Shown piece by piece: positions 19,652 to 45,917 of a DNA stretch of 64,000 nucleotides; position 1 is the stretch's first letter; every line of letters begins with the position of its first letter. A program made the translations under genes and the position numbers. Below the pieces are notes generated by a model that saw only the letters and a list, made by a program, of their open reading frames with translations, made no database searches and was not told where the DNA came from. This DNA comes from Opitutaceae bacterium EW11 (GTDB taxonomy: Bacteria; Verrucomicrobiota; Verrucomicrobiia; Opitutales; Opitutaceae). Where the stretch lies: positions 124,001 to 188,000 of the forward strand of contig QAYY01000009.1 in the NCBI GenBank assembly GCA_003054665.1, in the 5' to 3' direction.

Positions 19652-20028
19652 TTACGCCGCTCGGTCAAATCGAAGATCTGCCTGTATCCAAAAAATCGAG
19701 CGGAGGCGTGATGTGGGAAAGCTTCCAACTTCGCGGCTGTCCGAATGCAAACTCGCGAACTAGGACCGAATTCGCTGGAACTCCTTCGGTCGAGGTCCTC
19801 TGCCCAAGTATCAGTCTGGACACATCATGTGCGTTGCCGTTTTCTTGGCTCTCCGGGTTCTGCAATCAAGCCACGGACGATATTGCGAGAACGAGGTGAA
19901 CCTGAGAACATGAAATCGCGTTGATTACTTCTCCCAAACGCTCCGATACCTACTCGCCACGCGAACACGTCCCGTACCCGCGTGAGCGCGCCGACGCGTC
20001 GCTCGGTCCGACGCGCGCCAGCCCCACC
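19652..20028. other. divergent intergenic region between methyltransferase and GT2
   Basis: No convincing gene in about 375 bases. It must hold the promoters for the minus-strand methyltransferase and the plus-strand GT2-asnB-GT4 unit. The last 108 bases are open in frame with the GT2 gene from a TTG at 19921, but that stretch is Pro/Arg-rich and looks non-coding. I see no strong hairpin. Confidence 0.5.
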
Positions 20029-20988
20029 ATGATCTCGATCGTCATTCCGATCTACAACGAAGAGGCCAATATACTCACCCTCGTGGACAAAGTGACTGCG
20101 GCACTTCGCTCGGTGGACACGCCGTACGAGTTGATCCTGGTCAACGATGGCAGCACGGACGATACGCACGCGAAGATCTGCGAATCAGCCAAGCACGACA
20201 GCCGGATCAAGGGTCTGCATTTGCGGCGCAACTACGGTCAAACGACTGCCCTGGTCGCAGGATTTCACCACTCTTCGGGCGACGTTATCATCACCCTGGA
20301 CGGCGACCTGCAAAACGACCCTGAAGACATTCCTGTGCTCTTGGCCAAGCTGGACGAAGGCTACGATGTAGTTTCCGGCTGGCGCGAGGACCGAAAAGAC
20401 GACGCCCTCCAGCGCAATTTTCCGAGCCTGCTCGCGAACAAGCTCATATCGCGCGCCACGGGGATCAAGCTGCACGACTTCGGCTGTTCCCTTAAAGCTT
20501 ACCGCCGAAGCATCATCCGCCACGTGAATCTCTACGGCGAAATGCACCGGTTTGTGCCGATCTACGCCGTGGTCAGCGGCGCGCGCCTCGCCGAAGTCCC
20601 GGTCCGGCACCATCCGAGGCTGCATGGGAAATCCAACTACGGGCTGGAGCGTGTGGTCAAAGTGCTCTTCGACTTGGTCGTCGTGGTATTCCTTCAGCGA
20701 TATTCTCAGAAACCGATGTACCTCTTCGGCACCTGCGGCCTGCTCAGTCTCTTTGGCAGCTTCGTCTGCGCCGCGGCGGCGTTCTACTACAAGTTTTTCG
20801 GCCACAAGACCCTGATCGAAACGCCCCTGCCGATCGCCAGCGGCTTCCTCTTCGTCACCGCCGTGCTTTGCATCCTGCTCGGGCTGGTGGCGGAGCTCAG
20901 CATCCGCATCTATCACGAGACGCAGGACAAGCCGACCTACCTCATCGGTGCGACGGACAACCTGAAGCCGCGCTCGGACGCGATCTGA
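20029..20988 (+). CDS. GT2 polyprenyl-phosphate glycosyltransferase (DPM1/GtrB/ArnC-like)
   Basis: 319 residues from the ATG at 20029 (MISIVIPIYNEE), which fits the family start; a TTG 36 codons upstream is possible. The GT-A domain has the DGSTDDT and DGDLQNDPED motifs, then RHHPRLHGKSNYG, and ends with two membrane helices (about 225-250 and 260-290). Members transfer a sugar from a nucleotide donor to undecaprenyl phosphate, supplying periplasmic GT-C enzymes. Such a product could feed the GtrII-like or GT-C-like proteins in this locus (inference). asnB follows after three bases. Confidence 0.88.
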   Translation: MISIVIPIYNEEANILTLVDKVTAALRSVDTPYELILVNDGSTDDTHAKICESAKHDSRIKGLHLRRNYGQTTALVAGFHHSSGDVIITLDGDLQNDPEDIPVLLAKLDEGYDVVSGWREDRKDDALQRNFPSLLANKLISRATGIKLHDFGCSLKAYRRSIIRHVNLYGEMHRFVPIYAVVSGARLAEVPVRHHPRLHGKSNYGLERVVKVLFDLVVVVFLQRYSQKPMYLFGTCGLLSLFGSFVCAAAAFYYKFFGHKTLIETPLPIASGFLFVTAVLCILLGLVAELSIRIYHETQDKPTYLIGATDNLKPRSDAI

Positions 20989-20991
20989 GCG

Positions 20992-22860
20992 ATGTGCGGG
21001 ATTTGCGGTTTTGTCGGCGGGGGCACGCCGGATGACCTGCAACGCATGATGGCCGCGATCGCGCATCGCGGCCCGGATGCCGCAGGCTCGTGGAGCGATC
21101 CCGCGCAGCGTGTGCATTTCGGACACCAGCGCCTCTCGATCGTTGACCTCTGTACCGGCGATCAGCCGATGCGCACGGCGGACGGCGACCTCACGATTGT
21201 CTTCAACGGCGAGATCTACAATCACGCCAAACTCCGCGCCGAACTCACCGCGCTCGGTCATCGCTTCATCACCGATCATTCCGACACCGAAGTCTTGCTT
21301 CACGGATACCGCGCGTGGGGCTTGGATCTGACGTCCCGGCTCAACGGCATGTGGGCGTTCGTGCTCCACGACGCTGCGCGGCGGCGTCTCTTCGCCAGCC
21401 GCGACCGATTTGGCAAAAAGCCGTTCTTCTATTCCACCCTCAACGGCGGGTTCGTCTTCGGCTCCGAACTGGAGGCGATCCGCGCACACCGGGAAATCGG
21501 ACCGCGACTCGCGCTCTCCCGCCTGGCGCTGAAGAAGTATTTTGGATACGGGTACATTCCGGCTCCGCACACGGTCTGGACCGGGGTAGCGAAGCTGCCT
21601 GCTGGGCATTCGCTGCTCCTCGACTTGGCGGAGCCAGCACATCCGAAGCTGCGCCGCCATTGGAGCTTCGTGATGGAGCCAGAGCCGATCACCAGCAAGC
21701 GCAGCGCCGATGCACGGGCAGAGGAACTCCGGGTGGCCCTGCAGCGCGCCGTCCAGCGCCGCCTCGTCGCGGACGTTCCCGTGGGAGTCTTTCTCAGCGG
21801 AGGCGTCGATTCCTCCGCCGTCACCGCGTTGGCGAGCGCGAGCCGCCCCGCGGCCGGCGTGAACACTTACTGCATCGGCTTCGAAGAACCGTCCTTCGAC
21901 GAGAGCGCCTTCGCTCGGCAGGTCGCCGCCCACTGCGGTACCAGCCATCACGAAGAGCGTCTCTCGATCGAGAAGGCACGCGTTCTCCTTCCCGAGATCG
22001 TTGGCAGGCTGGACGAGCCGATGGCCGATAGCTCGCTCCTACCGACGGCCCTGCTCTGCCGTTTTGCCCGGCAGCATGTGAAGGTCGCCCTCGGCGGCGA
22101 CGGCGGCGACGAGTTGTTTGCCGGATACGATCCATTCCGGGCGCTGGCCGCGGCCCGACGCTATCAGCAATGGGTCCCCAGGCCCGTGCACCAGGCGATC
22201 GCGCTCGTTGCCCATCGACTTCCCGTGTCGCACCGGAACATGAGCCTGGATTTCAAGGCGAAGCGTTTCCTGCGGGGCGTCAACCGCCGCGAGGCGCTCT
22301 GGCTGCCGACCTGGATGGCCCCGCTCACGGCAGTGGAGCTGGAGTCCATCTTTGACGAAACCATTGATCCGGAGGATCTCTATTCGGAGGCGATCGCCGC
22401 GTGGGAGTCCTGCGCGCAGCCCGATCCGGTGGACCGCACGATTCAGTTCTACGTCCAGCTCTACCTCCAAGACGACATCCTGGTGAAGGTCGACCGGGCC
22501 TCGATGCAGGTCGGCCTCGAGGCCCGCGCCCCGTTCCTGGATCTCGAGGTCGTCGACGTCGCGCGGCGGATTCCGTGGCAGTGGAAGTATCGGCGCGGTC
22601 AGACGAAGTACCTCCTGAAGCGCGCGCTGGAGCCCCTGCTTCCCCACGCGATCATTCACCGGAAAAAGAAAGGTTTCGGCATGCCGATCGGGGCCTGGCT
22701 GAAACAAGGGCGGCTGCCCCTGGAACGTCCGGCCCTCGCCCCCGAATTCACCCGCTCCGCGCTGGCCCAGCACCGCTCCGGCCGCGTGGACCACCGGGCC
22801 TTTCTTTGGGCCATGTGGCTGCTGACGGAATGGCAGACCTCCCGTCCCCCTCTCTCCTGA
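20992..22860 (+). CDS. asnB: glutamine-hydrolysing asparagine synthase family protein
   Basis: 622 residues. The N-terminal Ntn-type glutaminase starts MCGICGF with nucleophile Cys2 and contains RHGP-like HRGPDA, FNGEIYNH and the SDTEVLLHGY stretch. The synthetase half has the PP-loop SGGVDSS and GGDGGDELFAGYD. The family makes asparagine, but copies inside polysaccharide loci are often thought to amidate uronic acids or other sugar carboxylates; the position between two glycosyltransferases favours that here (inference). The gene starts three bases after the GT2 stop and ends one base before the GT4 start. Confidence 0.9.
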   Translation: MCGICGFVGGGTPDDLQRMMAAIAHRGPDAAGSWSDPAQRVHFGHQRLSIVDLCTGDQPMRTADGDLTIVFNGEIYNHAKLRAELTALGHRFITDHSDTEVLLHGYRAWGLDLTSRLNGMWAFVLHDAARRRLFASRDRFGKKPFFYSTLNGGFVFGSELEAIRAHREIGPRLALSRLALKKYFGYGYIPAPHTVWTGVAKLPAGHSLLLDLAEPAHPKLRRHWSFVMEPEPITSKRSADARAEELRVALQRAVQRRLVADVPVGVFLSGGVDSSAVTALASASRPAAGVNTYCIGFEEPSFDESAFARQVAAHCGTSHHEERLSIEKARVLLPEIVGRLDEPMADSSLLPTALLCRFARQHVKVALGGDGGDELFAGYDPFRALAAARRYQQWVPRPVHQAIALVAHRLPVSHRNMSLDFKAKRFLRGVNRREALWLPTWMAPLTAVELESIFDETIDPEDLYSEAIAAWESCAQPDPVDRTIQFYVQLYLQDDILVKVDRASMQVGLEARAPFLDLEVVDVARRIPWQWKYRRGQTKYLLKRALEPLLPHAIIHRKKKGFGMPIGAWLKQGRLPLERPALAPEFTRSALAQHRSGRVDHRAFLWAMWLLTEWQTSRPPLS

Positions 22861-22861
22861 G

Positions 22862-24010
22862 ATGCGCCTGCTCCTGATCAACTACGAATACCCGCCCGTC
22901 GGCGGCGGCGCTTCGAACGCCACCTGGGAGATTTCCCGCGCGCTCGTGAAGCTCGGCCACGAGCCCGTCGTGCTCACGGCCCGGTATCGCCACCGCGAAC
23001 CGGATACGGCCAACCCCGGCATCCGCGTGATCGAGGTCCCGGCGATCCGCCGCCGAAAGGACCGCTGCAACGTCTTCGAGATGGCGAGCTTCGTCCTCAG
23101 CGCGACTTGGCGTATCCGGCGTCTCCTGCGCGAAGAGCGGATCGAAGGCATGATCGCCTTCTTCTCCATGCCCTGCGGCCCGATCGCCTGGTGGGGCTGG
23201 CGTGGGACGAAAGTCCCCTACATCGTCTCGCTCCGCGGCGGCGACGTCCCCGGCAACGAACCCGGCCTGGCCTGGTTTCACCGCCTCCTGCGCCCCCTCC
23301 GCCACGCCGTCTTCCGTCATTCCCGCGCCGTGGTGGCAAATTCGCAAAGCCTGAAAGAAGCGTCCGAGCGCGCGGACCCGTTCCCGGTCTTGGTCATCCC
23401 CAATGGCGTGGACACCGATTTCTGGCACCCCCCCGAGCACCGCCCCGCCCCGCCGCCGTTTCGGTTTTTGTTCGTGGGACGCTTTCAGGAACAGAAGAAT
23501 CTCCCGTGGCTTATTCGGCAGTTGTCCGAATTGAAACGGCTTCCGCACTTTCCGGATTGGGAGATCCACTTCGTCGGCGATGGACCACAGTTTGGTCAAA
23601 TCAGAACCCTTTGCAACACACTCGGTATCGCTTCGCGCGCCCAGTGGCATCGCTGGCTTGAGCACTCTGAACTCCGCCAGATGTACCAACAATGCCATCT
23701 CTTAATCAATCCTGCTCTATATGAAGGAATGTCCAACGTGGTTCTTGAGGCTCTCGCTTGCGGCATGCACGTGGCAATCAGCCGCGCCGCTGCTGGAGGA
23801 GAGCCCGTCTTCAGCTCCCAAAATGTGCTGACGTTTGATCTCACCGACACGCGGAGTGTGTTCGCGCGCTTCATAATCACCCCCAAGCTAGCTGTTTCGC
23901 TAGAGTCCGACCTAACGTGGGAGCGCTGCGCATCAGAATACTCGACCCTTATGCTACAAAATGGCGACGAAACCACCGGTGAAGGGCGCTCGCAGCACGA
24001 AGCCATATAG
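22862..24010 (+). CDS. GT4 glycosyltransferase, compositionally hybrid
   Basis: 382 residues with a GT-B fold. The N-terminal half shows NYEYPPVGGGASNATWE, a typical acceptor-side start; the C-terminal donor half has FLFVGRFQEQKN and the EGMSNVVLEALACG motif with the E-x(7)-E pair. The first two thirds have the high GC of the flanking genes, while from about 23.5 kb the codons become visibly AT-richer and stay so to the end. The product looks intact, so recombination in frame with a homologous gene is the simplest explanation. Acceptor and sugar are unknown. Confidence 0.85.
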   Translation: MRLLLINYEYPPVGGGASNATWEISRALVKLGHEPVVLTARYRHREPDTANPGIRVIEVPAIRRRKDRCNVFEMASFVLSATWRIRRLLREERIEGMIAFFSMPCGPIAWWGWRGTKVPYIVSLRGGDVPGNEPGLAWFHRLLRPLRHAVFRHSRAVVANSQSLKEASERADPFPVLVIPNGVDTDFWHPPEHRPAPPPFRFLFVGRFQEQKNLPWLIRQLSELKRLPHFPDWEIHFVGDGPQFGQIRTLCNTLGIASRAQWHRWLEHSELRQMYQQCHLLINPALYEGMSNVVLEALACGMHVAISRAAAGGEPVFSSQNVLTFDLTDTRSVFARFIITPKLAVSLESDLTWERCASEYSTLMLQNGDETTGEGRSQHEAI

Positions 24011-24037
24011 CTGTTTACACCCGGCCTGAACCCAAGA

Positions 24038-25198
24038 GTGCGTATCGTTTTTGTTTGCGTGTCGACAAGAGAAGTTGATCCATCTTCGCACTTGAATATC
24101 CCTCTTCAGAATCTTTCCAGGCAGACAGCTGCGCTCCGCGGACAGATTATGGATGCACTGCAGCGCGTAACAGACAGCGGATGGTACATACTTGGGCAAG
24201 AAGTCGCAAAATTCGAACAAGAGTTCGCGGCATACCTAAGAACCGCACATTGCGTTAGCAATGCGAACGGAACTGATGCGATTGAACTCGCATTACGTGC
24301 TGTGGGGGTCGGAGCCGGCGACGAGGTCCTCCTCGCGGCGAATGCTGGAATGTACGGTACAGTAGCCACGTTCGCCGTCGCTGCCGCCCCCTGCTATTGC
24401 GATATCGGCGAAGGCACGTTCAGTCTTGGCGCAAATGCGGTGGAAGAAGCTCTTAATCCGCGCGTTAAGGCAGTGATTCTGACTCATCTGTATGGCGCGG
24501 CCGGTGAGGTCAAACAGCTTTCGGAGATTTGCAGAAACCGAAACATCGCATTGATCGAAGACTGCGCTGAGTGTCATGGCGCCAGAATCGACGGGAAGGC
24601 GTTAGGAACGTGGGGTGACATTGGATGCTTCAGTTTCTACCCGACAAAGAATCTCGGAGCATTGGGCGACGGTGGCGCATGTGTAACATCAAGTCCAGAA
24701 CTTGCTGCAAGGCTGAGACAGCTCAGGCAATATGGATGGCAGACAAGATACCACTCCTTATTGGAAGGAGGAAGAAACTCGCGCCTTGACGAAATGCAGG
24801 CTGCCATACTCCGAGTAAAGCTGGGGCATCTGGAAACGTGGAACGCGCGGCGACGTAGAATCGCCGAATACTACAACGCGGCGTTTGCGAAGACGAAGCT
24901 TCAAGTGCCCCGAATCCAAGACGAGGGCTACGTAGGGCATCTGTATGTTGTACGTACGAGAGACCGCGAACTGATCAGAGAGCGGTTGCGAAATGTAGGC
25001 GTGGCGACAGACGTCCATTTCCCGGTGCCCGACCACCGCCAAAAATCTGTGGTTTCAAGACTAAAGAACGAATTTGATCTACCCGAAACCGAGGCGAACT
25101 GTGCGACCGTAATGACGCTCCCGTGCTTTCCGGAGCTCAGCGATTCCGAAGTAGAGTACGTTGCTAATGCCGTCGTCCAAGCCGTCACGGATGTCTAG
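24038..25198 (+). CDS. DegT/DnrJ/EryC1-family sugar aminotransferase (FdtB/QdtB-like)
   Basis: 386 residues from GTG at 24038; the conserved part begins near residue 19 (NIPLQNLSRQ), so a TTG at 24092 is an alternative start. This is a PLP enzyme of the DegT family: DCAECHGARIDGKALGTWGD, then FSFYPTKNLGALGDGG with the PLP lysine. It converts a keto-sugar nucleotide to an amino sugar. The next gene encodes a 3,4-ketoisomerase fused to an acyltransferase, so the pair fits synthesis of dTDP-3-acylamino-3,6-dideoxyhexose (Fuc3NAc or Qui3NAc type). RmlA and RmlB, needed upstream, are not in the window. Confidence 0.88.
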   Translation: MRIVFVCVSTREVDPSSHLNIPLQNLSRQTAALRGQIMDALQRVTDSGWYILGQEVAKFEQEFAAYLRTAHCVSNANGTDAIELALRAVGVGAGDEVLLAANAGMYGTVATFAVAAAPCYCDIGEGTFSLGANAVEEALNPRVKAVILTHLYGAAGEVKQLSEICRNRNIALIEDCAECHGARIDGKALGTWGDIGCFSFYPTKNLGALGDGGACVTSSPELAARLRQLRQYGWQTRYHSLLEGGRNSRLDEMQAAILRVKLGHLETWNARRRRIAEYYNAAFAKTKLQVPRIQDEGYVGHLYVVRTRDRELIRERLRNVGVATDVHFPVPDHRQKSVVSRLKNEFDLPETEANCATVMTLPCFPELSDSEVEYVANAVVQAVTDV

Positions 25199-25276
25199 TA
25201 TACGTGATTCGCTGGACTGCGACTGCATACCCATTCTAAGTCGGAACTAGAAACCGTAGAGACGATTCATATCCCA

Positions 25277-26272
25277 ATGCCACACTACGCTCATCCTAAT
25301 GCCCTGATCGACAGCGGCGCCTGCATCGGCAATGGTTCAAAAGTATGGGCATTCGCTCACATCCTGACTGGAGCATCCATCGGGAACGACTGCAATATCT
25401 GTGACCATGTGTTTGTGGAAAACAACGTTGTCATTGGAGACCGAGTAACAGTCAAATGCGGCGTCCAGCTTTGGAGCGGCGTGCGAGTTGAGGATGACGT
25501 ATTCATCGGCCCAAATGCCACTTTCACGAATGACAACTTCCCTCGGAGCAAACGGCACTTGGATGCCTACCCCGAGACCGTTCTCGAAAAAGGTTGCTCG
25601 ATCGGAGCGAACGCGACGATCCTGCCGGGGCGACGGATTGGTCGCAACGCTATGGTCGGAGCAGGAGCAGTGGTAACACGCTCGGTGCCTGCAAATGCGG
25701 TCGTAGTGGGTAATCCGGCCCAAATAACCGGCTATATTAACGGCCCGGCTGGCGGCAAGGCCCGTATGCCGGTCACCGGGCTCTCAGGCATTCCGGAGGT
25801 GGGGCGCCGACAGGAGCAGCTCACGAACAAATCCTCTGTCTCAGGCGTCACTCTTCATGAGTTCCCAGTGATTCAGGACCTCCGCGGTGATCTCAGCGTT
25901 GGTGAGTTTCAACGCGCAGTTCCGTTCACACCTAAACGGTATTTCTTGGTCTTCAACGTGCAAAACGGTGAGATCAGGGGAGAACACGCACACCGTCGCT
26001 GCCACCAATTCCTCATTTGCGTCTCAGGATCATGTAATGCGGTGGTCGACGATGGAAGAAACCGGGAGGAATTCCTGCTGGATCGTCCAAATATCGGTTT
26101 ATATATTCCCCCAATGATCTGGGGAACTCAATACAAATATTCGTCAGGAAGCGTCCTACTCGTGTTTGCGTCAGACTATTACGATGCTACCGACTACATA
26201 AGAGACTATAGCGAGTTCTTGACGTGTCTTGAATCCGGCGCCTCTACCTTGCCGCGTGCAGATCCCATCTGA
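25277..26272 (+). CDS. FdtD/WxcM-like bifunctional sugar acyltransferase and 3,4-ketoisomerase
   Basis: 331 residues with two domains. Residues 1-160 form a left-handed beta-helix acyltransferase with repeated hexapeptides ([20 protein letters not shown]) and the [11 protein letters not shown] loop typical of WbpD/FdtC enzymes. Residues 190-320 form a cupin of the FdtA/QdtA type, with [26 protein letters not shown] and [10 protein letters not shown]. Similar fusions (FdtD) carry out the isomerase and N-acetyltransferase steps flanking the aminotransferase. The aminotransferase is encoded 78 bases upstream. A convergent gap of 224 bases with no visible gene follows. Confidence 0.88.
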
Positions 26273-26496
26273 CTACGCCCGCATCGAGAATACTTCTGCT
26301 GCCAAACGAACAATGTCGTTCTGGTTCCGAGAGGGACTGGGGCACGCAGGAACAAGCTCGAAGTGATCTGTTTGTATCTGGCTTGTGGCATTTGCAGATG
26401 GCAACTCGACGTCTCTCGAGTTTTCGGCGGAGACCGCGCATTGCTCCTCGGATCGACTGGGTTCTTCGCATGTGCTCGCTAATGCCTTAAGGTTGC

Positions 26497-28014
26497 TCAC
26501 TGAAGGGCAATCGTCGCGACCTCACCTTGTATGAGGATGCACCCTTCCGTGGGCCAGCCGGAGCGTCCTGCGGCCCATTGCTCCGCTCTCTGTTGCTCTT
26601 CCGGAGTGGCAGGTTGAAAAGACGATCCCGTAGCTTCATTGAGAAATGCGAGCCTGGACCAAGCGGGGTACCGAGCAGAGACATTCATGTCACCAACAAC
26701 GGTCCCGATTCGAGAATCATACCACCAGCGGCCACCGACGATCGACACCCGCTTAATCTGTGCGAATCCTGGATCCTGTTCCATCTTCGCTAGTATTCTG
26801 TTGGCCAACTGCGAATCCCAACGATTCAGCCGAATCTGGTCATTTAGGATTTTTGCATCGACCCCGCAAAACGAGAAACACACGACGGCCGCTATACTCA
26901 CGCAGGCTAGGCGGGAGAAGCAGCTGCCCACTGTCCACCAGATCGCAAACGTCGCAGACCATACTAGGGCCACCGCCACCAACACTCTCGGAACAGGCCA
27001 ATATACCTGTCCTACGGCAACAATGCCCACCGACATTACCACGCCCAGCGCAAGCACCAGATATATGACTGCGGTACGGCGCATGCCTTTTCGAAAACAC
27101 ACAGTGCATGCCAAACACAGCACTGAAGCTATGAAGAGCACGGACGCCGCCGGCGAAACCAATGCTTTATGGTCATCCGCAAGGCGGTACATTACTTTAA
27201 GGGTATGCAGCACTTCCCCAAAGCGGTTTCCAATATCGGAGACCCTGAGGAGCTGCCCACGTCCTTCAATTCTGTAATTCAACAACTTAGAAATCAGGAA
27301 GGTCAGCAAAGCATACGCGAACGTGCCCAAGACGATGGTATACAGCTCAGGCCAAGGCAATCGTACGGCCATATCGCGTGCTCTCGAACCCCGTTCATAA
27401 TGCGAAAGCCTGGCAGCGACCGTACATAGCCAGCCCACTACTGCTACATTCAGGACAATCTGATAGTCCGCGAGGGCCAGCGCGAAAAGCAGTGCCCCTG
27501 TCCATATTGATCTGCCGCCCCGTCGGCCAATAAGAATTCCGACCAAAGCAAGCCCATACCCACATACAACCAACCAGCCAACAGCGGTAAACGTAAATAT
27601 CTCAGTCTGGTACGGGTGCGCTACAAACAATAAGACGCAAAGCATTCCACCCAAGCTCCCTACCCGGAGTCCCCACGCGCGGACATATGCCGTCCCGACG
27701 GCCACAAGCGTGCAGCCCAGAATCGTGCTTGAAATCGCACCGGTTCCCACGCGATCGAACCCGAGTAGATCCAGACATGACACAAGAAAGGGTTGCAGCG
27801 GCCTGCCCTGCGAAAAACACAAATAGGCGAGAGAGTCGAACGACCAGGCGCCCTCCTGCGCATGCCTCCAATCATCAGGCGAGTAATGGGCTCCGGAGAG
27901 GCAAGCTGAGCGTACAATCAAGGATGCGAGGCAACAAAGACCAAACGCCACATTTGGGGTCACCTCAAGGGACGAAATTCTTTCCGCCAACCGCCGAATT
28001 GATGCAAGCACCAT
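26497..28014 (-). CDS. GtrII-like polytopic glucosyltransferase family protein
   Basis: 505 residues with about 11 membrane helices. The first external loop has HYSPDDWRHAQEGAW with paired aspartates (Asp47, Asp48), followed by SQGRPLQPFL; a later loop has YWPVPRVLV. These features match GtrII-type O-antigen glucosyltransferases, which use undecaprenyl-phosphate-linked glucose on the periplasmic face. It ends the low-GC minus-strand operon, 15 bases after the fused glycosyltransferase. No GtrA-like flippase is nearby, though a GtrB-like GT2 is encoded at 20029. The family match is by motif. Confidence 0.65.
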   Translation of the reverse strand: MVLASIRRLAERISSLEVTPNVAFGLCCLASLIVRSACLSGAHYSPDDWRHAQEGAWSFDSLAYLCFSQGRPLQPFLVSCLDLLGFDRVGTGAISSTILGCTLVAVGTAYVRAWGLRVGSLGGMLCVLLFVAHPYQTEIFTFTAVGWLVVCGYGLALVGILIGRRGGRSIWTGALLFALALADYQIVLNVAVVGWLCTVAARLSHYERGSRARDMAVRLPWPELYTIVLGTFAYALLTFLISKLLNYRIEGRGQLLRVSDIGNRFGEVLHTLKVMYRLADDHKALVSPAASVLFIASVLCLACTVCFRKGMRRTAVIYLVLALGVVMSVGIVAVGQVYWPVPRVLVAVALVWSATFAIWWTVGSCFSRLACVSIAAVVCFSFCGVDAKILNDQIRLNRWDSQLANRILAKMEQDPGFAQIKRVSIVGGRWWYDSRIGTVVGDMNVSARYPAWSRLAFLNEATGSSFQPATPEEQQRAEQWAAGRSGWPTEGCILIQGEVATIALQ

Positions 28015-28029
28015 AGAAAACGTAGTCCG

Positions 28030-30261
28030 TCAGGCGCGCCAACCGAGGCGAAGTTTCCTGCGAATCGTTTGGGTCCAGCGCCCCCCCACACCGAGGCGTT
28101 CAACTCGCTCAGTGGCTGCCACAGCCTTCTCTTTTACCACATTTAAGAATTCACTGCGTTGTGTCCACAACCATTCAGCCAATATCTCGAGGCGTACCTG
28201 CTCAATTGCCTCGAGAGCAATCGTGTCTCCAACCTTTCGCGACACGCCTGGGCGAACTAGAGCCTCCGACTCAGTAGCACGGGAAATGAGCTCATGCATC
28301 TGTTTCGGCAACACCTCTATGCCGTAACTCCGGACCATCTGCTCTCGGCCCCGACACGCCATCCGTCGTCGCTTCTCTGGATTCGCAGTAGCATCAAGTA
28401 CCGCTTCGACATATTGCGTCAGTTCGCCCTCACAAACCGGAATCAAATATCCCGTTTCCGCGTTAAGCAATTCTGACTGCCCGCCCACGTCAGCCATAAT
28501 TGGCACGACCTCCATACTCATCGCCTCGTACAGCACGAGTGCGATGCCTTCGTTTTTCGACGGGACTAGCAAAAGTTCGACGCTGGCAAACAGCTCGCGG
28601 ACCTCGCTGTTCGCAAGTGCACCGAGCATCACTACATTGCGGATTCTCTCTTCCGCGATGAACTTACGAAACATTTCCTCCTCTGGACCACTTCCCGCGA
28701 CCAGAATAGTACCGTTCCACTCTCGCCTCTGGAGTTCCAGTGCGATTTTCGCGAGCAGCTCGGGCCTTTTTTGTTCATGCAACCGCCCCACGAAAGCAAC
28801 GCGGCACGCCGTCGCACCGCCGATCCGCGAAAAGCGTCCTCCACCGACGGCTGATGTGCGGGACCAATACTTGGTATCCACACATGTATAAGCGACGCTG
28901 CATTTGGTTTCATCGTGGCCGCGTGCAATCATCCAATCGCGGAGGTGCCGCGAAGACGCGACCGTCGCTGTCAGGTCCGTGACATAATCAACAGACATTC
29001 TTGGATAACCTCCGGACTTCCATGATAATTCCTCAATGTGCACGTAGTCTATGAACGGTATAGAAGGATGCCGACTGCGCAGGAAAGGCAGCAACTGATA
29101 ACCGAGTGCGCTGTGAGTTATGAGTACCGCATCGCAGGATCGACTTTCAATGAGATAGGATAGAAAACGCGGATAATCGGGTACCCGCAAAAACGTATTA
29201 AGCGGGAAGACATCAGGAGTCAGGGCATAGAACTCGCTCATCCATGAATGTTTGGCGGAAGCCAACGTCGTAGCGACTGTTACTTCGTACGAATAGGCTG
29301 ACTGAAGAGAACGAATCAAATCGAGGTTGAATTTGTCAGAACCGCCCAACTCGAGGTGTGGGACGATAATCAGCAACCTCCGACTCGCCTTGCTCAGCCT
29401 ATTCGTCAACGGCAATTCCACAGGGGGAATCTCTCGAGGACAGTGCCAGATCTCGGGTAGACGTGGGAACGATACCTTCGTGAGGCGCGGAAATTTCTGA
29501 TGCAGTCCGTCCCGGAACCGTCGATAATTTGGGCCTGCGTCGAAATTGGCCCACTTGATGGAATGGTCTACCCGGCGGCGGTACCAATGCAGATAAAGAG
29601 GAACAGTTCGGCCCCAAAGTCCGTGATCAGCACAACGCAGCCAGAATTCCCAGTCCTCACACCCTCCACGAATCGTTTCGTCATAACCACCGACGGCCTG
29701 AAACACGGAACGGCGAACCATAGCGTTTGTTTGGACACAGTTCTCGTCGAGGAACTTCGACCCATCATCAAAGCCGCGCGGCCAGAGATAATTCTGCGCA
29801 CCAAAGCCGACTTCAAAGCCTTTTACGAAAGCGCAGTTTGGATGTGAAACGAGATACCACAGCAGTATTTCGAGCGCGACTGGCTCGATGAGATCGTCAC
29901 TATCAAGTTGAAAAACGTAGTCAGATTTGGCCTGTCCTATCCCATAATTCCTAGCCGCGCCTGGCCCCCCGTTTCTGGGCATGTGTACAATGCGTATACG
30001 CCGGTCGAGAGACGCGACTTGCGATAGAATTCGCACCGCTTCGACCTCAGTCGACGCGTCATCGACGACGATCCACTCCCAGCATCGTAGTGACTGCTGT
30101 AACACGGATTCGACTGTCTCGAGAAATATGGCTCCCGTATTGTGATAGGGGGTGACGATTGATACTCTAGGGTTCTCGTCTGCCTCACCGGAATAGCGAA
30201 AAGCGCGCGTTCGGTTCAGATTCGGGACATCAGAATAGTCGGGGCTGGAAGCGTTTATCAT
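28030..30261 (-). CDS. fused GT2-GT4 glycosyltransferase
   Basis: 743 residues with two catalytic domains. Residues about 30-280 are a GT-A domain: RVSIVTPYHNTG, WIVVDDAS, QLDSDDLIEP and the CEDWEFW catalytic acid. Residues about 295-650 are a GT-B domain: LLIIVPHLELGGSDKFN, VAFVGRLHEQKRPE and EGIALVLYEAMSM with the E-x(7)-E pair. About 90 residues follow, ending in the basic RRKLRLGWR, which may touch the membrane. One chain could add two sugars in succession. The gene overlaps the upstream methyltransferase gene by ATGA and is followed after 15 bases by the GtrII-like gene. Confidence 0.88.
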   Translation of the reverse strand: MINASSPDYSDVPNLNRTRAFRYSGEADENPRVSIVTPYHNTGAIFLETVESVLQQSLRCWEWIVVDDASTEVEAVRILSQVASLDRRIRIVHMPRNGGPGAARNYGIGQAKSDYVFQLDSDDLIEPVALEILLWYLVSHPNCAFVKGFEVGFGAQNYLWPRGFDDGSKFLDENCVQTNAMVRRSVFQAVGGYDETIRGGCEDWEFWLRCADHGLWGRTVPLYLHWYRRRVDHSIKWANFDAGPNYRRFRDGLHQKFPRLTKVSFPRLPEIWHCPREIPPVELPLTNRLSKASRRLLIIVPHLELGGSDKFNLDLIRSLQSAYSYEVTVATTLASAKHSWMSEFYALTPDVFPLNTFLRVPDYPRFLSYLIESRSCDAVLITHSALGYQLLPFLRSRHPSIPFIDYVHIEELSWKSGGYPRMSVDYVTDLTATVASSRHLRDWMIARGHDETKCSVAYTCVDTKYWSRTSAVGGGRFSRIGGATACRVAFVGRLHEQKRPELLAKIALELQRREWNGTILVAGSGPEEEMFRKFIAEERIRNVVMLGALANSEVRELFASVELLLVPSKNEGIALVLYEAMSMEVVPIMADVGGQSELLNAETGYLIPVCEGELTQYVEAVLDATANPEKRRRMACRGREQMVRSYGIEVLPKQMHELISRATESEALVRPGVSRKVGDTIALEAIEQVRLEILAEWLWTQRSEFLNVVKEKAVAATERVERLGVGGRWTQTIRRKLRLGWRA

Positions 30262-31175
30262 GGTCTGCGGAGGACGACAACGTCTTGGTAATCGTGACCC
30301 TGGTCCCGAACTTCAACAATGTCCAAAAAGCGCGCCCAATAGCTATTTAGGTATTCCACCGAGTGGAATACGGTGCAATTATAGTTCAGAGCACTCGGCC
30401 AGCTAAACACGACCTTCTCCTTCGGCATCGGTCCAGCAAATAGATCCGGTCCAACTTGGTAATCCGGGATGCTTTCAGCCAGCCTTACCAGTGAATCGTA
30501 CACGGGCATCCCCGCACGCATGCGAGACCACGTCGCGTCTGTGTGCACTGTCAAATACGCGATGCCTCCGGGTCTGAGAACCCGCCGAAGTTCCGCGAGC
30601 CATGCCGCTTCAAAATAGTCTATGTGCGTAAAGACCGAAAATGCGTATACAACGTCGAGATACGCATCAGGAAAGGGCAAGCTTGGGAGAATTGAAGAAT
30701 GGAAGACTTTGACCTGTCGTGGCAGGAACTTGCGCACCCATTCAACATGGCGAAGGTTCAAGTCCGCACCCCAAGATTCACATTCAGGGTTCTGGCAAGC
30801 GAAGTGACGCAGCACTCTTCCGGAGGCACAGCCTAGCTCAAAAGCGCGCCCAATGCTTCCGTGCGCCGCGTGGGCACAAAAGGCATTTTTAACGAGCAGG
30901 TAGTCACGCAGTCCGCTTAACCACCAGTCGAAATGGCGTTCACCATGATACCCTTCTCGATCGGCGGTTACGGGGATCGAAAAACTGTCACGACTCAAAT
31001 AGCGTTCTAGCTCCTCATCAGTCACAAGCCCCTCTAGACGCGTATATGTCGGCATGCGGGGGTGACTTTGAGCGGGACCGAGAACCGAGAAGGGCGCATT
31101 GTTGCCCAGCAAGGTGAGGTCAGCAATGTTCTGGGGTCGCGCTGAACCAATCAGGGGTAACATAGAGTTTTTCAT
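30258..31175 (-). CDS. SAM-dependent methyltransferase of the O-antigen operon (second)
   Basis: 305 residues. The SAM motif is RAFELGCASGRVLRHFA (about residues 110-126), then GADLNLRH, YAFSVFTHIDYFEA and RRVLRPGGIAYLTVH. About 105 residues precede the core, with TRLEGLVTDEELERYL and GYHGERHFDWWLSGLRDYL, a layout often seen in methyltransferases from glycan loci. It overlaps both neighbours by 4 bases, so it is translated with the kinase/coiled-coil protein and the fused glycosyltransferase. It may methylate a sugar in the repeat or at the chain end; the sequence does not decide. Confidence 0.82.
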   Translation of the reverse strand: MKNSMLPLIGSARPQNIADLTLLGNNAPFSVLGPAQSHPRMPTYTRLEGLVTDEELERYLSRDSFSIPVTADREGYHGERHFDWWLSGLRDYLLVKNAFCAHAAHGSIGRAFELGCASGRVLRHFACQNPECESWGADLNLRHVEWVRKFLPRQVKVFHSSILPSLPFPDAYLDVVYAFSVFTHIDYFEAAWLAELRRVLRPGGIAYLTVHTDATWSRMRAGMPVYDSLVRLAESIPDYQVGPDLFAGPMPKEKVVFSWPSALNYNCTVFHSVEYLNSYWARFLDIVEVRDQGHDYQDVVVLRRP

Positions 31176-32932
31176 GGTAGATTTTTGTTCGGCTCTTTAG
31201 CACGGGGAACGACCCTCGTCGCGGCAACACGAATCCTCCACCAAAGAGATGACTCGATACTAGCGAGCCGCTCAGCCAGCTGTCGACACTTGGATTCAGA
31301 AGCAGCGTAGGACTCGGACGTGGAAGCTAGCTTCTTGCTCGCCTCCGCGTATTTGTTCCCGCATGCCTTGATCGATTCCCTACACTGCTGCACCAACAGG
31401 CTCTCATGCCCTAGTCTCTCCTGCGTCGAATTCAGCGCATCCCTTAAGCGCGAGACCTCCTGTCGCTTAACTTCGTTGTCTCGGCTGAGGGCTTCGACTT
31501 TCTCGGCAAGAATGGAGTTCTCGGTAGTGAGTCGCTCCAACTCGTGACCTGTAGATTCCGCCTGATCCTCGGCGCGCTGCAACCGCGCCTCGATCGCGTG
31601 CTGTCCACTTCGCATTTCCTGAATTTCCGCCGCCTGCGTTTCGATTCCGCGCTGCTTCTCAGCGATATCCGCCAAGCTGCGGTCCAACTCTACCGATAGG
31701 CGAGCGGATTCTCGCTGTACGTATTCTAGCTGCTCCTTGTGCCATTGTATTCCTTCCTTCAGTTTCTCCGCCCAGCCACGAAGATCATCTATTACATGCT
31801 CCTGCTCCGCAGCTCTCTGCTCAAGTTTCTGCGATCGCCTTTCGTGCCAATCCTTTGCCTCCAATAAAGACTTTCCCCATTTTTCGAGTTCCAGAATGCG
31901 ATCCCTATCTCGATTCGTCCGGGCGTATTCGGCTTCAGCCAGGATGTGCCTTTTACGCTCCAATGCAAAATTATACTCCCAACTCCGCGACTGCCCCTCG
32001 TTCCAAAGATAAGCGATATAGGTACGGATGTGATCAAATACTACCCTAGCACTCCACCCGCATTCCCCAGACCACATTTCGAGCACCTGAGCATAGTTTT
32101 TCTGCAAAAGGCGGACCGCCACCGCGTCATAAGCTGAGTTCGCAGCAACGCGGGCTGCTGCTGCCTCGGCATGGCGCGCAAGTGCACGCAGAAGAACATC
32201 CGTCTTCTTTTCTGCGAATAGGTCTAGCGCATCGGCGAGTACCCCGTGCAGCGGCGGGTCCAGGCTCAACAACACGCCGGCGTATGTAAAATGGAAGAAA
32301 GCAAGAACATCTAGCTTTGCATTCAGATCATCGAGCGGCTCAGTGGAATTCAGATCAATCCAGACACACTCTCCTCCTGTAAGTGCAGCGTTGAACGGAA
32401 AAGGATCGCCGTGGGCTATCTGAAGCTCATGCAAATTCGATAATCCTCGGGCAAGCCCAGCCAAATACGTCAATGAGCTAACTCGATCACGCGCGTTTGC
32501 CGCATCAGCAAGTGCCTGCTGAGGGGCCAAAACGGAGACCCAGCCCGGAGTCCGTCCCGCACCTTTAAGTACCCCGCCTTCGGCAAAACGGACCTTCATC
32601 GCACACTTGCAGGACGCATCTACCTGGATCACTCCACTTGGGCGAACATCGCGAATCATCTCCAGTATCCGAGATCGTTGATCTGCCCCCGCGCGCATCC
32701 GATCCAAGCCCAAGATATGGTCAGGCTTATGAAGTTCACGACTTATGTTTAGCCAGACCCATCGTCCGTCTGACGCAGCGAGACCCTGAGGATCGGCACC
32801 ATTCTGCCCAAAAACTACACCATCAGGCAATACCCTGCAGGCACATTCCGCCCCACAGAGGTTTACAGTAATTTGCTCGCGAGGGACGAGCGCACCTACG
32901 CCGATTTGAATGCCCGGCTTAAGACAAATCAT
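31172..32932 (-). CDS. kinase-like protein with long coiled coil (WbdD-type chain-length ruler candidate)
   Basis: 586 residues. The middle has a kinase-type catalytic loop, AHGDPFPFN (His174, Asp176, Asn181), and a metal-loop WIDLN (Asp193), preceded by GLARGLSNLHEL and followed by VLAFFHFTY, which parallels the WHDDVRPWN, LIDFG and SFFVFVNELF segments of E. coli WbdD as I remember it. The N-lobe is hard to recognise, so activity is uncertain. From about residue 325 to 560 the chain is a charged Glu/Gln/Arg-rich coiled coil. It ends in SSLWWRIRVAATRVVPR, a basic aromatic helix suited to membrane contact, as at the WbdD C-terminus. Neighbours are Wzm, Wzt and two methyltransferases. Confidence 0.7.
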   Translation of the reverse strand: MICLKPGIQIGVGALVPREQITVNLCGAECACRVLPDGVVFGQNGADPQGLAASDGRWVWLNISRELHKPDHILGLDRMRAGADQRSRILEMIRDVRPSGVIQVDASCKCAMKVRFAEGGVLKGAGRTPGWVSVLAPQQALADAANARDRVSSLTYLAGLARGLSNLHELQIAHGDPFPFNAALTGGECVWIDLNSTEPLDDLNAKLDVLAFFHFTYAGVLLSLDPPLHGVLADALDLFAEKKTDVLLRALARHAEAAAARVAANSAYDAVAVRLLQKNYAQVLEMWSGECGWSARVVFDHIRTYIAYLWNEGQSRSWEYNFALERKRHILAEAEYARTNRDRDRILELEKWGKSLLEAKDWHERRSQKLEQRAAEQEHVIDDLRGWAEKLKEGIQWHKEQLEYVQRESARLSVELDRSLADIAEKQRGIETQAAEIQEMRSGQHAIEARLQRAEDQAESTGHELERLTTENSILAEKVEALSRDNEVKRQEVSRLRDALNSTQERLGHESLLVQQCRESIKACGNKYAEASKKLASTSESYAASESKCRQLAERLASIESSLWWRIRVAATRVVPRAKEPNKNLP

Positions 32933-33653
32933 CGCGTGTAGAAAGGAAATAAAGTGGTCGCAAATCTCCGTCAGCGGACGCGCTATTCACCAGAAGTTCG
33001 TAGGATTTCACGCAGGTGTGCTTCAGAAACCAATCGGGTGTAAACAGCTCTCCGAGCAACTGATTGACCGGCTCACTAGAGGGAGATTCAAAATAGATCC
33101 CGTGGGTAACGGACTGAGCCAGCTTCTGCAGTACTCGAACAAGCTCTTCAGGCTTCCGGCGACCAACAGCGGTCATAGCATAACCGGAATATACCTGATG
33201 AACGACGCTCAACAACAGACACGCCTCCCAAACTGCGGTCGACGATGCGATAAAATCGATGAAATCGGCCGCAACGAACTCGAGTTCTCCTGCACGGTGG
33301 CACGACGCCGACGCCGCGAGCAGTATTGAAGGTTGGACAGGGTATCGTTTTTGAACGTCTGCCGCCAAATTGTTTTCAATTGCCGTAACGCTGTATCCCC
33401 TATCGGCTAGCGCCTCTGCAAAAAGGCCTGTCGAAGCGCCAACATCGAGAATCCTGGCGGGCTTGTATATAGATCGCCTAAAGAGATCGATGGTTATGGC
33501 GATAAGCCTATCCAGTCCCACTCTCTCAAATGGGTAAATAGCTGCACTATCGACGACACTAACCGGGGAATCCGGGTGCATGCAAACTTCGCGATCAAGC
33601 GTGCCGCGGAACACCGGCAAGTACGTTCGTCCTTGTTTCAGCTCGGCAGACAT
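32919..33653 (-). CDS. SAM-dependent methyltransferase, probable detached WbdD methyltransferase domain
   Basis: 244 residues. The SAM motif is ARILDVGASTGLFAEAL (residues 67-83), followed by TAIENN and the CLLLSVVHQVYSG segment, which aligns by eye with the GLSVFHHIVH segment of WbdD. The N-terminal part and the C-terminal region (LGELFTPDWFLKHTCVKSYELL) complete a small class I fold. It overlaps the Wzt stop by 16 bases and the kinase/coiled-coil start by 14, so its stop and the next start are interleaved. Together with the next gene it rebuilds the methyltransferase-kinase-coiled coil order of WbdD. The specific function is inferred. Confidence 0.72.
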   Translation of the reverse strand: MSAELKQGRTYLPVFRGTLDREVCMHPDSPVSVVDSAAIYPFERVGLDRLIAITIDLFRRSIYKPARILDVGASTGLFAEALADRGYSVTAIENNLAADVQKRYPVQPSILLAASASCHRAGELEFVAADFIDFIASSTAVWEACLLLSVVHQVYSGYAMTAVGRRKPEELVRVLQKLAQSVTHGIYFESPSSEPVNQLLGELFTPDWFLKHTCVKSYELLVNSASADGDLRPLYFLSTRDDLS

Positions 33654-34951
33654 TGGAATGATACCTTCGAAGGAATACGCAAAAGGGCCGGTACAAAGGA
33701 CCCGTCTCGCGTCACCACCGAGAATGTGGCGGCCCCAAATACTTTGTCCATATACTCCCCCTGAACCGGCGATCTGAGGCCAAGAGCGATATTATAGTTT
33801 CCGGGAGCAAGACATACGTCAAACTCAAAGGTCACCCTGAGTATAGTTCCAGCATTCTGAGCCGGAATCTCCAACTGATGAAAGTAGCTGTTTACGGCGA
33901 ACAGATCGATACCTTCGGGCGTTCTGACCAGTATCCCCGCTTCGCTAGTGTCGTTCAGGTCAGTAAGTATTTTGAGATCGGCAACTACAGCAGCGCGGGA
34001 TCCATGTACAAGGCAGTCGGTCTCCCGACCGAATTGCGTCGTGATGCACTCAATGTAGCGCGCCTTGCCCGCCCCCGTCCGGCCTGTGCTCCTCTTGGCG
34101 AACGGCGGCTGAAGGTTAGATACTTGGGGGCTTGCGTCTCCATCAATACAGTCCGATTTAGCAGATCCGCTTGGATGGAGATTCCGCTCACAATACAAAT
34201 CGGTGACAACGTCAACCGGTCCATCCATCAGGCAACGGCCATCCTCAATGAGTAGCGCACGCGAGCAGATCGAGCGAACCGCAGATAACGAATGGGAGAC
34301 AAAGAGCAGCGTGACGCCGCGCGCTCGCAACTTCTCTAGATGCGCATAACACTTTGCCTGGAAAAACATATCTCCCACTGCAAGTGCCTCGTCAATAATT
34401 AGGATTTCGGGCTCGACGGCAACCTGCACTGCAAACGCAAGGCGAACCAACATGCCGCTGGAATATGTCTTTACCGGCTGGTCAAGGAATTCACCAATGT
34501 CCGCGAAGGCGACGATTTCTTCCATCCGGGCCTCGATCTGCGCATCACTCAAGCCGAGTATCGCTGCGTTTAGCCTCACGTTGTCTCGGCCGCTGAACTC
34601 AGGGTTGAATCCCGCTCCGAGTTCAAGCAACGCTGCGATTCGACCATTTACTTCCACGCACCCCGCGCTTGGCGAAAGGGTTCCGGCTAAAATCTGCAAT
34701 AAGGTTGATTTGCCGGACCCATTTCGGCCGATAATGCCAACGGACTCACCCCGGCTCACCTCGAACGAGATATCGCGAAGTGCGTAAAAGTCGTGAAAAC
34801 ACCGCTGTTGGGCTATCGTGCACCTTTCCCATAGGGCAGGAATGACACTCTTAGCGCAGTGGTGAACGATGGAGTTCAGCCGGGCTGACGGGCTATGCCA
34901 GATCCGATATGCCTTACTCACGCCGGACAGCTTGATCAGAGCGTCTGTCAT
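33638..34951 (-). CDS. wzt: O-antigen ABC exporter ATPase with C-terminal carbohydrate-binding domain (Wzt), system 1
   Basis: 437 residues. The nucleotide-binding domain (about 1-255) has GIIGRNGSGKST, the signature TYSSGMLVRLAFAV and IDEALAVGD. The Wzt-type N-terminal insert with AYRIWHSPSARL is present. After a linker, residues about 280-437 form a beta-sandwich of the Wzt C-terminal type (LFAVNSYFHQLEIP, APGNYNIALGL), which in E. coli O9a binds the modified non-reducing end of the glycan before export. That requirement fits the WbdD-like genes directly downstream. It overlaps wzm by ATGA. Confidence 0.93.
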   Translation of the reverse strand: MTDALIKLSGVSKAYRIWHSPSARLNSIVHHCAKSVIPALWERCTIAQQRCFHDFYALRDISFEVSRGESVGIIGRNGSGKSTLLQILAGTLSPSAGCVEVNGRIAALLELGAGFNPEFSGRDNVRLNAAILGLSDAQIEARMEEIVAFADIGEFLDQPVKTYSSGMLVRLAFAVQVAVEPEILIIDEALAVGDMFFQAKCYAHLEKLRARGVTLLFVSHSLSAVRSICSRALLIEDGRCLMDGPVDVVTDLYCERNLHPSGSAKSDCIDGDASPQVSNLQPPFAKRSTGRTGAGKARYIECITTQFGRETDCLVHGSRAAVVADLKILTDLNDTSEAGILVRTPEGIDLFAVNSYFHQLEIPAQNAGTILRVTFEFDVCLAPGNYNIALGLRSPVQGEYMDKVFGAATFSVVTRDGSFVPALLRIPSKVSFQCLPS

Positions 34952-35787
34952 AATACGTCAGCAAACGCGGGCTTGAGTCCGGAGAATGCAGCTTGACCCA
35001 ATACAAACGTGATCACTCCACACAAGAATAGGTACAAGACATCTGCCGCTATGGGTGCTTGATGCCAAAGGACAACATGTCGGCTTGTTTCCACCACGAT
35101 CAGCAGCGGATTGAACCGCAAGAACGAGAACGCAGGAGGGATGCTTGAAAAAGAATAAAACACTGCGCTGACGAACATGAGCAGTACCGAGAGGAATTGG
35201 ACGAATGGTGCAATATCGCGAAGAAACACGCCCACGGCTGAAAGCATCAGGGCGACGCCGACGGACAAGAGGCCAAGCGCGATCAGGATTGGAAACAGCC
35301 ACAGGACGGAGCCTGACAGACCGGGGCCCCATATTTCGACCGACGCCAGCACCAGAGCCAATCCGACAATGCAGCGGAACGCGGCGGCACCAACTGCCGC
35401 CGCAGGAAGCACTTCCAACGGGAAAACGACCTTCTTCACGAAATTTGGGTTCTGCACCACCAGAGATGGAGCCACCATCATGGATTCCTGGAACATCTGC
35501 AAAAGGCAAAGCCCGAGAAACAACCCAATCGCATAGTCCACCCGGGTTTCCGACTCAACTGTGCCGAAACGGCTGTTGAACACGGCAATGAAGACGAAGG
35601 CGTAAACAGCAAACAGAAGGAGCGGATTCAGGACTGTCCAGGCGATGCCCAGAAAGCTCCCCTTGTGCTGCAATTCGATGGAGCGACGGGTGAACTGCCA
35701 AAGCAGTCGGCGATGGGTAATGAAACTGCCGCAGATTGTGAGCGGATTCAGGAGGCGCCAGACACTCTGTTTTTGGTAAAGCCGCAT
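34948..35787 (-). CDS. wzm: O-antigen ABC exporter permease (Wzm), system 1
   Basis: 279 residues with six membrane helices of the ABC-2 type. Hallmarks are RSIELQHKGSFLGIAWTVLNPLL at the cytoplasmic coupling region (long motif, about residues 35-57), NPNFVKKVVFPLEVLP, and the C-terminal SGLKPAFADVL, which is shared with the second Wzm (KKTQPGFADVI). With Wzt it moves undecaprenyl-PP-linked polysaccharide across the inner membrane. It is the first gene of the tightly coupled minus-strand operon. Composition rises toward the host level within this gene. Confidence 0.93.
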   Translation of the reverse strand: MRLYQKQSVWRLLNPLTICGSFITHRRLLWQFTRRSIELQHKGSFLGIAWTVLNPLLLFAVYAFVFIAVFNSRFGTVESETRVDYAIGLFLGLCLLQMFQESMMVAPSLVVQNPNFVKKVVFPLEVLPAAAVGAAAFRCIVGLALVLASVEIWGPGLSGSVLWLFPILIALGLLSVGVALMLSAVGVFLRDIAPFVQFLSVLLMFVSAVFYSFSSIPPAFSFLRFNPLLIVVETSRHVVLWHQAPIAADVLYLFLCGVITFVLGQAAFSGLKPAFADVL

Positions 35788-35826
35788 GACGTGAGCCGCT
35801 GAACCTCTTCGGTCAGGGTCCGACGC

Positions 35827-36930
35827 TCAATGGTTTTTTTCGGCCGGCAAGGGGATCACTTGTGTGTACCGCGATGCGAGTGCCGAAACGCTGGTCCACG
35901 CGTTAGATGCCTCCTCGGCCTGAACCGCCCAACATTCGTTGCGCCGACCCGGCTGCTCCAGAGCGGCGGCCCAGCCCGGACAATCCTCGATCGGCACCAG
36001 CGAGAGTCCATCCACGCCCGCCAGTTCACTCGCGCCGTCCACCGCACTGGAGACCGCGGGCACTCCGGCCGCGAGGGCTTCCACGACCGCATTCGGAGTG
36101 CCTTCGAACCGTGAGGGCTGCACGTACAGATCGAACTTGGGTAGTAGCTCGGCTGCATCGGAGCGCTGACCGGGGAAGAAGACCATGCCATCCAGGCCGA
36201 GGGTGCGGCGTTGGTGCTCCAGGTTTCCCCGCTCCGGGCCTTCGCCGAAGACGACCACCGCGAGCGGGGCCCGCTCGTCAGGAGAAAGTAAGGCAAGCGC
36301 TTCCAGCAGGATGTCGTAGCCTTTCTGGCGATCCAAGCGTCCCAGCGAACCGATGACTCGCTTCCCTTCCAGTTGAGGCAGACCGAGTTCTGTCCAGGAG
36401 GGAATTCGGCCGGGGGGCTGCGGCGGATCCATCGCGTTCGGGATGAAGGCGCTGCGCGCGAGATCCACGCCTTCGTGCTGCGCCGCCCAGGGCAGCGCCG
36501 AACGGCTGTTCGACGCGGTGAAGGCTGTGAGAGGCGCCGTCGCGCGCAAGAGGAGTTTCTGCCAAGCCGCGTAGTTGATGTTGCGCGCCTGGAGGCAGGT
36601 CAGAACCGGCAGGCCGCCCGCGAGCTGTGCGGCGATGCGGCCGAAAATCGTGCTGACAAAAAGGACCGTCACCACGCAGTCGAAGTCGGCGGACAGGAGC
36701 TCCCAAACGGTTCGAATCAGCCCCACCCCACTCAGCACCCCGGTCCGTCCAACAGCTTTGACGGTCACCCCGGCGGTCGCCATCGGATCGCGGTACAACG
36801 GTTCCACGATTTCGTTCAGCGCAAAGACGGTAACGCGATGCCCTTCTGCGGCCAGACCACAGGCGAGCTGGCGCACGTGCTTCTGCGCGCCGCCGATCGC
36901 CAGGCTGTCGATGAAAATCGCGATTTTCAT
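35827..36930 (-). CDS. GT4 glycosyltransferase
   Basis: 367 residues from the ATG at 36930 (MKIAIFIDSLAIGGAQKH), which overlaps the preceding stop by ATGA; an ATG 9 bases upstream is possible. GT-B fold with IGGAQKHVRQLA near the N-terminus, GSLGRLDRQKGYD in the donor domain and EGTPNAVVEALAAG with the E-x(7)-E pair. It ends 40 bases upstream of wzm. High GC like the flanking genome. It probably adds one sugar of the exported polysaccharide; specificity is unknown. Confidence 0.88.
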   Translation of the reverse strand: MKIAIFIDSLAIGGAQKHVRQLACGLAAEGHRVTVFALNEIVEPLYRDPMATAGVTVKAVGRTGVLSGVGLIRTVWELLSADFDCVVTVLFVSTIFGRIAAQLAGGLPVLTCLQARNINYAAWQKLLLRATAPLTAFTASNSRSALPWAAQHEGVDLARSAFIPNAMDPPQPPGRIPSWTELGLPQLEGKRVIGSLGRLDRQKGYDILLEALALLSPDERAPLAVVVFGEGPERGNLEHQRRTLGLDGMVFFPGQRSDAAELLPKFDLYVQPSRFEGTPNAVVEALAAGVPAVSSAVDGASELAGVDGLSLVPIEDCPGWAAALEQPGRRNECWAVQAEEASNAWTSVSALASRYTQVIPLPAEKNH

Positions 36931-39057: not shown

Positions 39058-39170
39058 TGATTCGTCAGGAAGGGCTTCCCGTTGAACGTTTCAACTAAAC
39101 TCTCAGCAGGTCGGATCGCGCCTCACCCGGGGGCCAAGTCGGTCGCGAGGTGGGCGACCTGCCGCAGCGC

Positions 39171-45752: not shown

Positions 45753-45917
45753 GCCCGAATTTCGGCCTTAGAAATCGTTTCGCCTGATCGCACCCACAAG
45801 CTGTCTCCACAGCAGGGCCTCATCTGCAGGTTCGCGAGATGGTCCGCTCTGTCTCGTGTCCGTTTCTTCTCTTGCGACAGCTGGCGCCACGCGGTTTTGT
45901 GCGGCTTCGCGTTTTTC

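Follow-up and report, generated by a model that had tools for sequence, protein, structure and literature searches.

Two adjacent genes of Opitutaceae bacterium EW11 very probably serve the synthesis of a cell-surface amino sugar that carries an acetyl group and is most likely Fuc3NAc. They lie in a stretch of 64,000 nucleotides (the window) on contig QAYY01000009.1, called C1 here, and encode a DegT family aminotransferase and a fused FdtD-type protein. Their sequences make it very likely that they supply the last three steps to dTDP-Fuc3NAc, a sugar for a polysaccharide exported by Wzm/Wzt. RmlA and RmlB, encoded on contig C3, would provide dTDP-4-keto-6-deoxyglucose. In FdtD, the C-terminal cupin would then move the keto group from carbon 4 to carbon 3 with inversion at carbon 4 (galacto), DegT would aminate carbon 3, and the N-terminal beta-helix of FdtD would acetylate the amine. 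Fuc3NAc would finally go into or onto the polysaccharide exported by the Wzm/Wzt proteins of the same low-GC3 block. The fused type of enzyme is already known from other bacteria and the kind of pathway is well understood. Beyond an earlier note on this DNA, the present analysis identifies where the precursor would come from, which product is likely and what surrounds the pair. A specific surface sugar, Fuc3NAc, is predicted, and the precursor enzymes are shown to be present in the genome. Coordinates of the features are collected in the table.

Table. Features of the amino sugar region and related membrane-protein places (window coordinates unless another contig or locus is named)
Feature	Position	Strand	Basis or remark
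DegT/DnrJ/EryC1 aminotransferase, putative FdtB/WxcK-type dTDP-3-keto-6-deoxyhexose 3-aminotransferase	24038..25198	+	Pfam PF01041, E 6.9e-97
Fused left-handed beta-helix N-acetyltransferase and cupin 3,4-ketoisomerase, FdtD/WxcM type	25277..26272	+	Pfam hexapeptide and PF05523
505-aa protein, putative membrane glycosyltransferase in the GtrC slot	26497..28014	-	About 10 hydrophobic segments; convergent with FdtD
GT2-GT4 two-domain glycosyltransferase	28030..30261	-	Pfam; GC3 0.57; low-GC3 block
Methyltransferase	30258..31175	-	Pfam Methyltransf_11; GC3 0.562; low-GC3 block
586-aa protein, C-terminal part coiled-coil-like	31172..32932	-	SMC-type and weak Bud32-kinase matches, far below cut-offs
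Methyltransferase-like protein	32919..33653	-	Sub-threshold Methyltransf_23; GC3 0.531; low-GC3 block
Wzt, polysaccharide ABC exporter ATPase with Wzt_C domain	33638..34951	-	Pfam ABC_tran and Wzt_C
Wzm, ABC-2 membrane subunit	34948..35787	-	Pfam ABC2_membrane
Paralogous membrane-protein places	16182-18755, 40701-42887; L023 5888-8821; C3:344957-347320, 350061-352391, 355077-357113 (own genome)

The enzyme pair and its precursor

The earlier note described a DegT gene followed by a gene for a fused acyltransferase-FdtA protein, and both frames were recovered with domain matches far above chance. The intergenic gap is 78 bases. The second gene is a single continuous frame with hexapeptide repeats in the N-terminal part and an FdtA domain (PF05523, E 3.8e-56, residues 190-317) in the C-terminal part, so that one chain holds the beta-helix acyltransferase and the FdtA cupin of FdtD/WxcM proteins. 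It matches the solved structure 4mzu over residues 15-315, nearly its whole length, with 401.6 bits. Further solved matches are 4zu4, the 4mzu cupin alone (205 bits), FdtA 2pa7 (115.8 bits) and the QdtA entries (86-93 bits). Arg203, His237 and His239 are kept in 82/82 fused proteins, namely the window protein, a second copy on contig C7 and those of 80 loci described below. His237 and His239 are the HAH histidines of the cupin, which we take to be functional.

In DegT, the FYPTKNLGALGDGG stretch aligns with the same stretch in solved aminotransferases, and its lysine presumably binds PLP. Two starts are conceivable. GTG at 24038 may be too early, with TTG at 24092 as the alternative, because the N-terminus then resembles that of a relative in locus L117 ('MTPIPLNDL' there, 'NIPLQNL' in the window).

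The DegT protein has the FYPTKN lysine and is nearer to solved C3-type aminotransferases (3frk, named QdtB, 255 bits; 5u1z, 238; 3nyu, 220) than to those of the C4 type (3bn1, 138 bits; 4ztc, 96; 4piw, 83), as expected of an FdtB/WxcK-type enzyme, with two reservations. Its top solved match, at 307 bits, is 7b0d, named glutamine--scyllo-inositol transaminase. Its best three NCBIfam matches, far below the cut-offs, are the C4-type models PseC, ArnB-type and DesI; DesI is a C4 enzyme. No NCBIfam equivalog is over cut-off, nor is any of its 9 NCBIfam matches, so no curated family names this DegT. As for the reference enzymes, PMC7725333 gives WlaRG (5U1Z) and WbpE (3NYU) as C3-aminotransferases and PerA (3BN1), PglE (4ZTC) and WecE (4PIW) as C4-aminotransferases.

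A midpoint-rooted DegT tree of 73 rows was built from 71 of the 80 FdtD loci and the window and C3 copies; the other 9 loci had no match of at least 300 residues, and row L044 is very long. The window protein falls inside a 54-row group (support 100/96) that includes all 45 rows labelled DegT-GT2-FdtD, and its position within the group is not firm (98/78). The copy on contig C3 is the neighbour branch of this group (99/92). With rows only from FdtD loci or the own genome, the tree shows which FdtD-linked DegT resembles that of the window, and other families are possible.

RmlA and RmlB had been said to be missing from the window, leaving the precursor to come from elsewhere. The whole genome (6.4 Mb, 45 contigs) was searched, and both predictions hold. 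The over-cut-off places of rmlA (C3:727833-728690, 495.2 bits) and rmlB (C3:728807-729814, 494.9 bits) lie side by side on contig C3, and the window is on C1. The genome thus contains the two genes, RmlA and RmlB, that a dTDP-Fuc3NAc pathway calls for. The predicted ketoisomerase, aminotransferase and N-acyltransferase functions of the pair, as first proposed, are supported by the domains, the solved relatives, the conserved residues and this genome-wide supply of dTDP-4-keto-6-deoxyglucose. No rmlC match was found in the genome by a search that finds rmlC in 11/14 control genomes, and none of 16 rmlD matches is over cut-off (the best, beside rmlB, has 72 bits against a cut-off of 224). The usual dTDP-L-rhamnose route is therefore not evident, and a divergent route may exist.

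The genome holds further copies of both genes. Near rmlA/rmlB on contig C3 a DegT gene of the cassette type, 43% identical in product to the window DegT, is followed by a GT2 gene. A second fused FdtD on contig C7 is 63% identical to the window protein in one alignment and 60% by local alignment; it is flanked by a GT2 gene and a gene for a 977-aa membrane protein, and the genome-wide DegT search gave no match on C7. In a quick tree of 89 rows with one support value, the two FdtD copies group with each other (SH-aLRT 95), each on a long branch. Together, the DegT of C3 and the FdtD of C7 could make up another Fuc3NAc set, divided between two contigs. Ten places in the genome carry further DegT genes, 6 of them above 240 bits, which could serve the pathway equally.

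Large membrane-protein frames (731-978 aa, open) occur at six paralogous places, one of which directly follows the C7 FdtD. Three of the six were scanned; none reaches the cut-off of a Pfam family, and their C-terminal parts have weak YfhO-like matches. An 879-aa protein near the C7 FdtD was tried as kin of the window's 857-aa protein and failed; the kin is the 977-aa frame. Structure prediction of a 728-aa protein (with the 857-aa protein) was too poor to use (mean pLDDT 40.1).

Neighbouring genes

On its left side, a block of nine low-GC3 genes that includes Wzm/Wzt and spans 24.0-35.8 kb begins with the DegT-FdtD pair. At 24.0 kb GC content drops from 0.61 to 0.54, and from 36 kb it is again 0.66. 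Across the block, from DegT through Wzm, GC3 ranges over 0.531-0.646; the 20 other genes measured (up to 48.2 kb) lie at 0.662-0.892.

An alternative is that the pair works with the co-directional genes upstream, GT2, AsnB and GT4 (19921-24010), and not with the convergent Wzm/Wzt genes. The upstream genes are on the same strand, only 27 bases separate the end of GT4 from the GTG start of DegT, and the upstream GT2 (19921) has an ArnC-type model as its best match, with a score under the cut-off of that model. Composition argues the other way. GC3 shifts between GT4 (0.749) and DegT (0.55) and then stays low through Wzm, so the pair is more like the convergent block, and service to the upstream genes is possible but rather unlikely.

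Taken alone, the GC3 difference shows a distinct composition and not transfer. Together with the distribution of the 505-aa protein, which has one homologue among the 80 loci, in L117, and no match in the 386 other phylum genomes searched, it suggests that the block was acquired from elsewhere. A search of 22800-37000 (14.2 kb) for repeats of at least 22 bases found none, and the window has no tRNA.

The 505-aa protein has no Pfam or NCBIfam match. Among 387 genomes of the phylum it was found in 1, its own, and in none of the 386 others. An iterative profile search that covered the window, two stretches of its own genome and the 80 loci found only the protein itself and the L117 homologue (24% identity, E 5.6e-19). 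In L117 this homologue comes directly after DegT-GT2-FdtD-GtrA, a position that suggests a GtrC-like role for the 505-aa protein. Structure prediction with the one homologue gave a mean pLDDT of 40.0, too poor to use.

The 586-aa protein has no solved relative at E 0.1. It adjoins a methyltransferase and Wzt/Wzm, a layout that recalls the chain terminators of the WbdD type, and is possibly a chain-length or terminator protein. Elsewhere in the window, one frame (39150-40598) combines HAD-like and UbiA prenyltransferase domains, and a second Wzt-type ATPase with a Wzt_C domain (45897-47267) is encoded outside the low-GC3 block.

The sugar and its acyl group

Two positions of the cupin, equivalent to residues 203 and 283 of the window protein, bear on sugar stereochemistry. 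They are Arg and His in FdtA 2pa7, Arg and Gly in 4mzu, and Tyr and Arg in QdtA. Swapping these residues reportedly changes the product. The window protein has Gly283, which agrees with 4mzu but is neither the His of 2pa7 nor the Arg of QdtA; among the 82 fused proteins, 63 have Gly and 15 have Ala at this position. Arg203 aligns with the Arg of both 2pa7 and 4mzu. By itself Arg203 is weak evidence, because Arg is also found there in most unfused domains examined.

The fit of Arg203 with 2pa7 and 4mzu, the residue rule and the inversion at carbon 4 that accompanies isomerisation by FdtD together favour, short of showing it, Fuc3NAc (galacto) over Qui3NAc (gluco) as the product. A dTDP-Qui3NAc product might be argued for on the grounds that PF05523 covers both kinds of enzyme, that QdtA also matches at 86-93 bits and that QdtB is the fourth-best solved match of DegT (255 bits). 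By far the closest solved relative of the fused protein is 4mzu, an FdtD-type enzyme that inverts carbon 4, and at the position of Arg203 QdtA has Tyr, making Qui3NAc improbable. Least probable is an acyl group other than acetyl, such as formyl or a longer chain: a hexapeptide-repeat protein gives no certain reading of the acyl donor and no NCBIfam acyltransferase model is over cut-off among the 25 of 46 matches listed, but the N-terminal domain aligns with the 4mzu beta-helix and with 7s43 and 7s3u, solved proteins named N-acetyltransferase.

Occurrence and known counterparts

The earlier note regarded the fused form as much less common than separate enzymes. In the phylum sample it is indeed the rarer form, since 61/387 genomes have an over-cut-off FdtA match and a fused frame is present in only 8 (strict) to 11 of the 61, where the higher count includes three genomes with weak or partial acyltransferase matches and only matches in long open frames were taken, the remaining ones being too short for both domains. 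Elsewhere the fused form is widespread. A scan of genome contigs found at least 542 stretches that encode a relative of the fused query, and the best 80 of these all match across both domains. Loci L029 (genome G203) and L039 (G146) have tandem FdtA domains in one open frame, a fusion unlike FdtD.

Gene order was examined in these 80 loci, a sample biased by having been chosen for likeness to the query. Counts were made from tblastn places; a naive gene caller lost FdtD in 11/80 loci. DegT-GT2-FdtD occurs in at least 47/80 loci by rule, a lower bound because the rule misfiled L052 and L082, and in 49 with these two read by hand. Other orders by rule are FdtD-DegT (11), GT2-FdtD-DegT (3), DegT-FdtD as in the window (3), GT2-FdtD without adjacent DegT (5), DegT elsewhere (7) and no DegT (4). 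Two of the five GT2-FdtD loci are near a contig end, and L052 and L082, which belong to these five, do carry DegT before GT2. A GtrA-like gene follows FdtD in 48/80 loci, including 41/47 DegT-GT2-FdtD loci, as found with a profile made from 8 of the same 80 loci (3/3 checked match Pfam GtrA). The pair had been presented as a compact and unusual route. It is better seen as a shorter version of the common DegT-GT2-FdtD(-GtrA) cassette, of which the two-gene fused route is the core.

The window pair has no GT2 between DegT and FdtD and no GtrA-like gene after FdtD. The only GtrA match in the genome at E 0.001 (C3:341311-341652) is not adjacent to the window pair, the C7 FdtD or the rmlA/rmlB cluster. 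We tentatively suggest, as a speculative reading, that an O-antigen branch module has been rearranged to give this block, and that the 505-aa protein would add Fuc3NAc at the periplasmic face from a lipid-linked donor. To make the donor, GtrB-like GT2 and GtrA parts encoded at other places in the genome would be shared; the genome would also keep the second Fuc3NAc set on contigs C3 and C7.

Separate FdtA/FdtB/FdtC or QdtA/QdtB/QdtC enzymes run the same reactions, and their domains are homologous to those of the window pair. In those systems isomerase and acetyltransferase are two proteins; in the window they are one. The FdtD-type 4mzu shares both domains and their order with the window protein, differing in a linker that alignment gaps show to be slightly shorter. 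Its database title is 'WxcM-like protein', and we take it to be FdtD of Shewanella denitrificans, the protein of Chantigian, Thoden and Holden (2013).

By annotation, the pair also resembles a transaminase and a bifunctional enzyme of Xanthomonas. In X. hortorum, PMC12573098 gives as neighbours wxcK (transaminase), wxcL (glycosyltransferase), wxcM (bifunctional acetyl transferase/isomerase), wxcN (sugar transferase) and wxcO (sugar translocase). The order wxcK-wxcL-wxcM-wxcN resembles that of at least 47/80 loci, a likeness of gene order and annotation, not of wxc sequences. According to the abstract of PMC4878081, insertion mutants of X. campestris wxcK and wxcN have no FucNAc in the LPS, and the main text reports traces in the wxcN mutant. 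That paper describes wxcN as a small membrane protein, identifies the lost FucNAc as O-antigen branches and allows for polar effects behind both phenotypes. Unlike the Xanthomonas region, the window lacks a GT2 gene within the pair and a GtrA-like gene, and has, convergent with FdtD, the gene for the 505-aa membrane protein, a candidate transferase beside the sugar pair.
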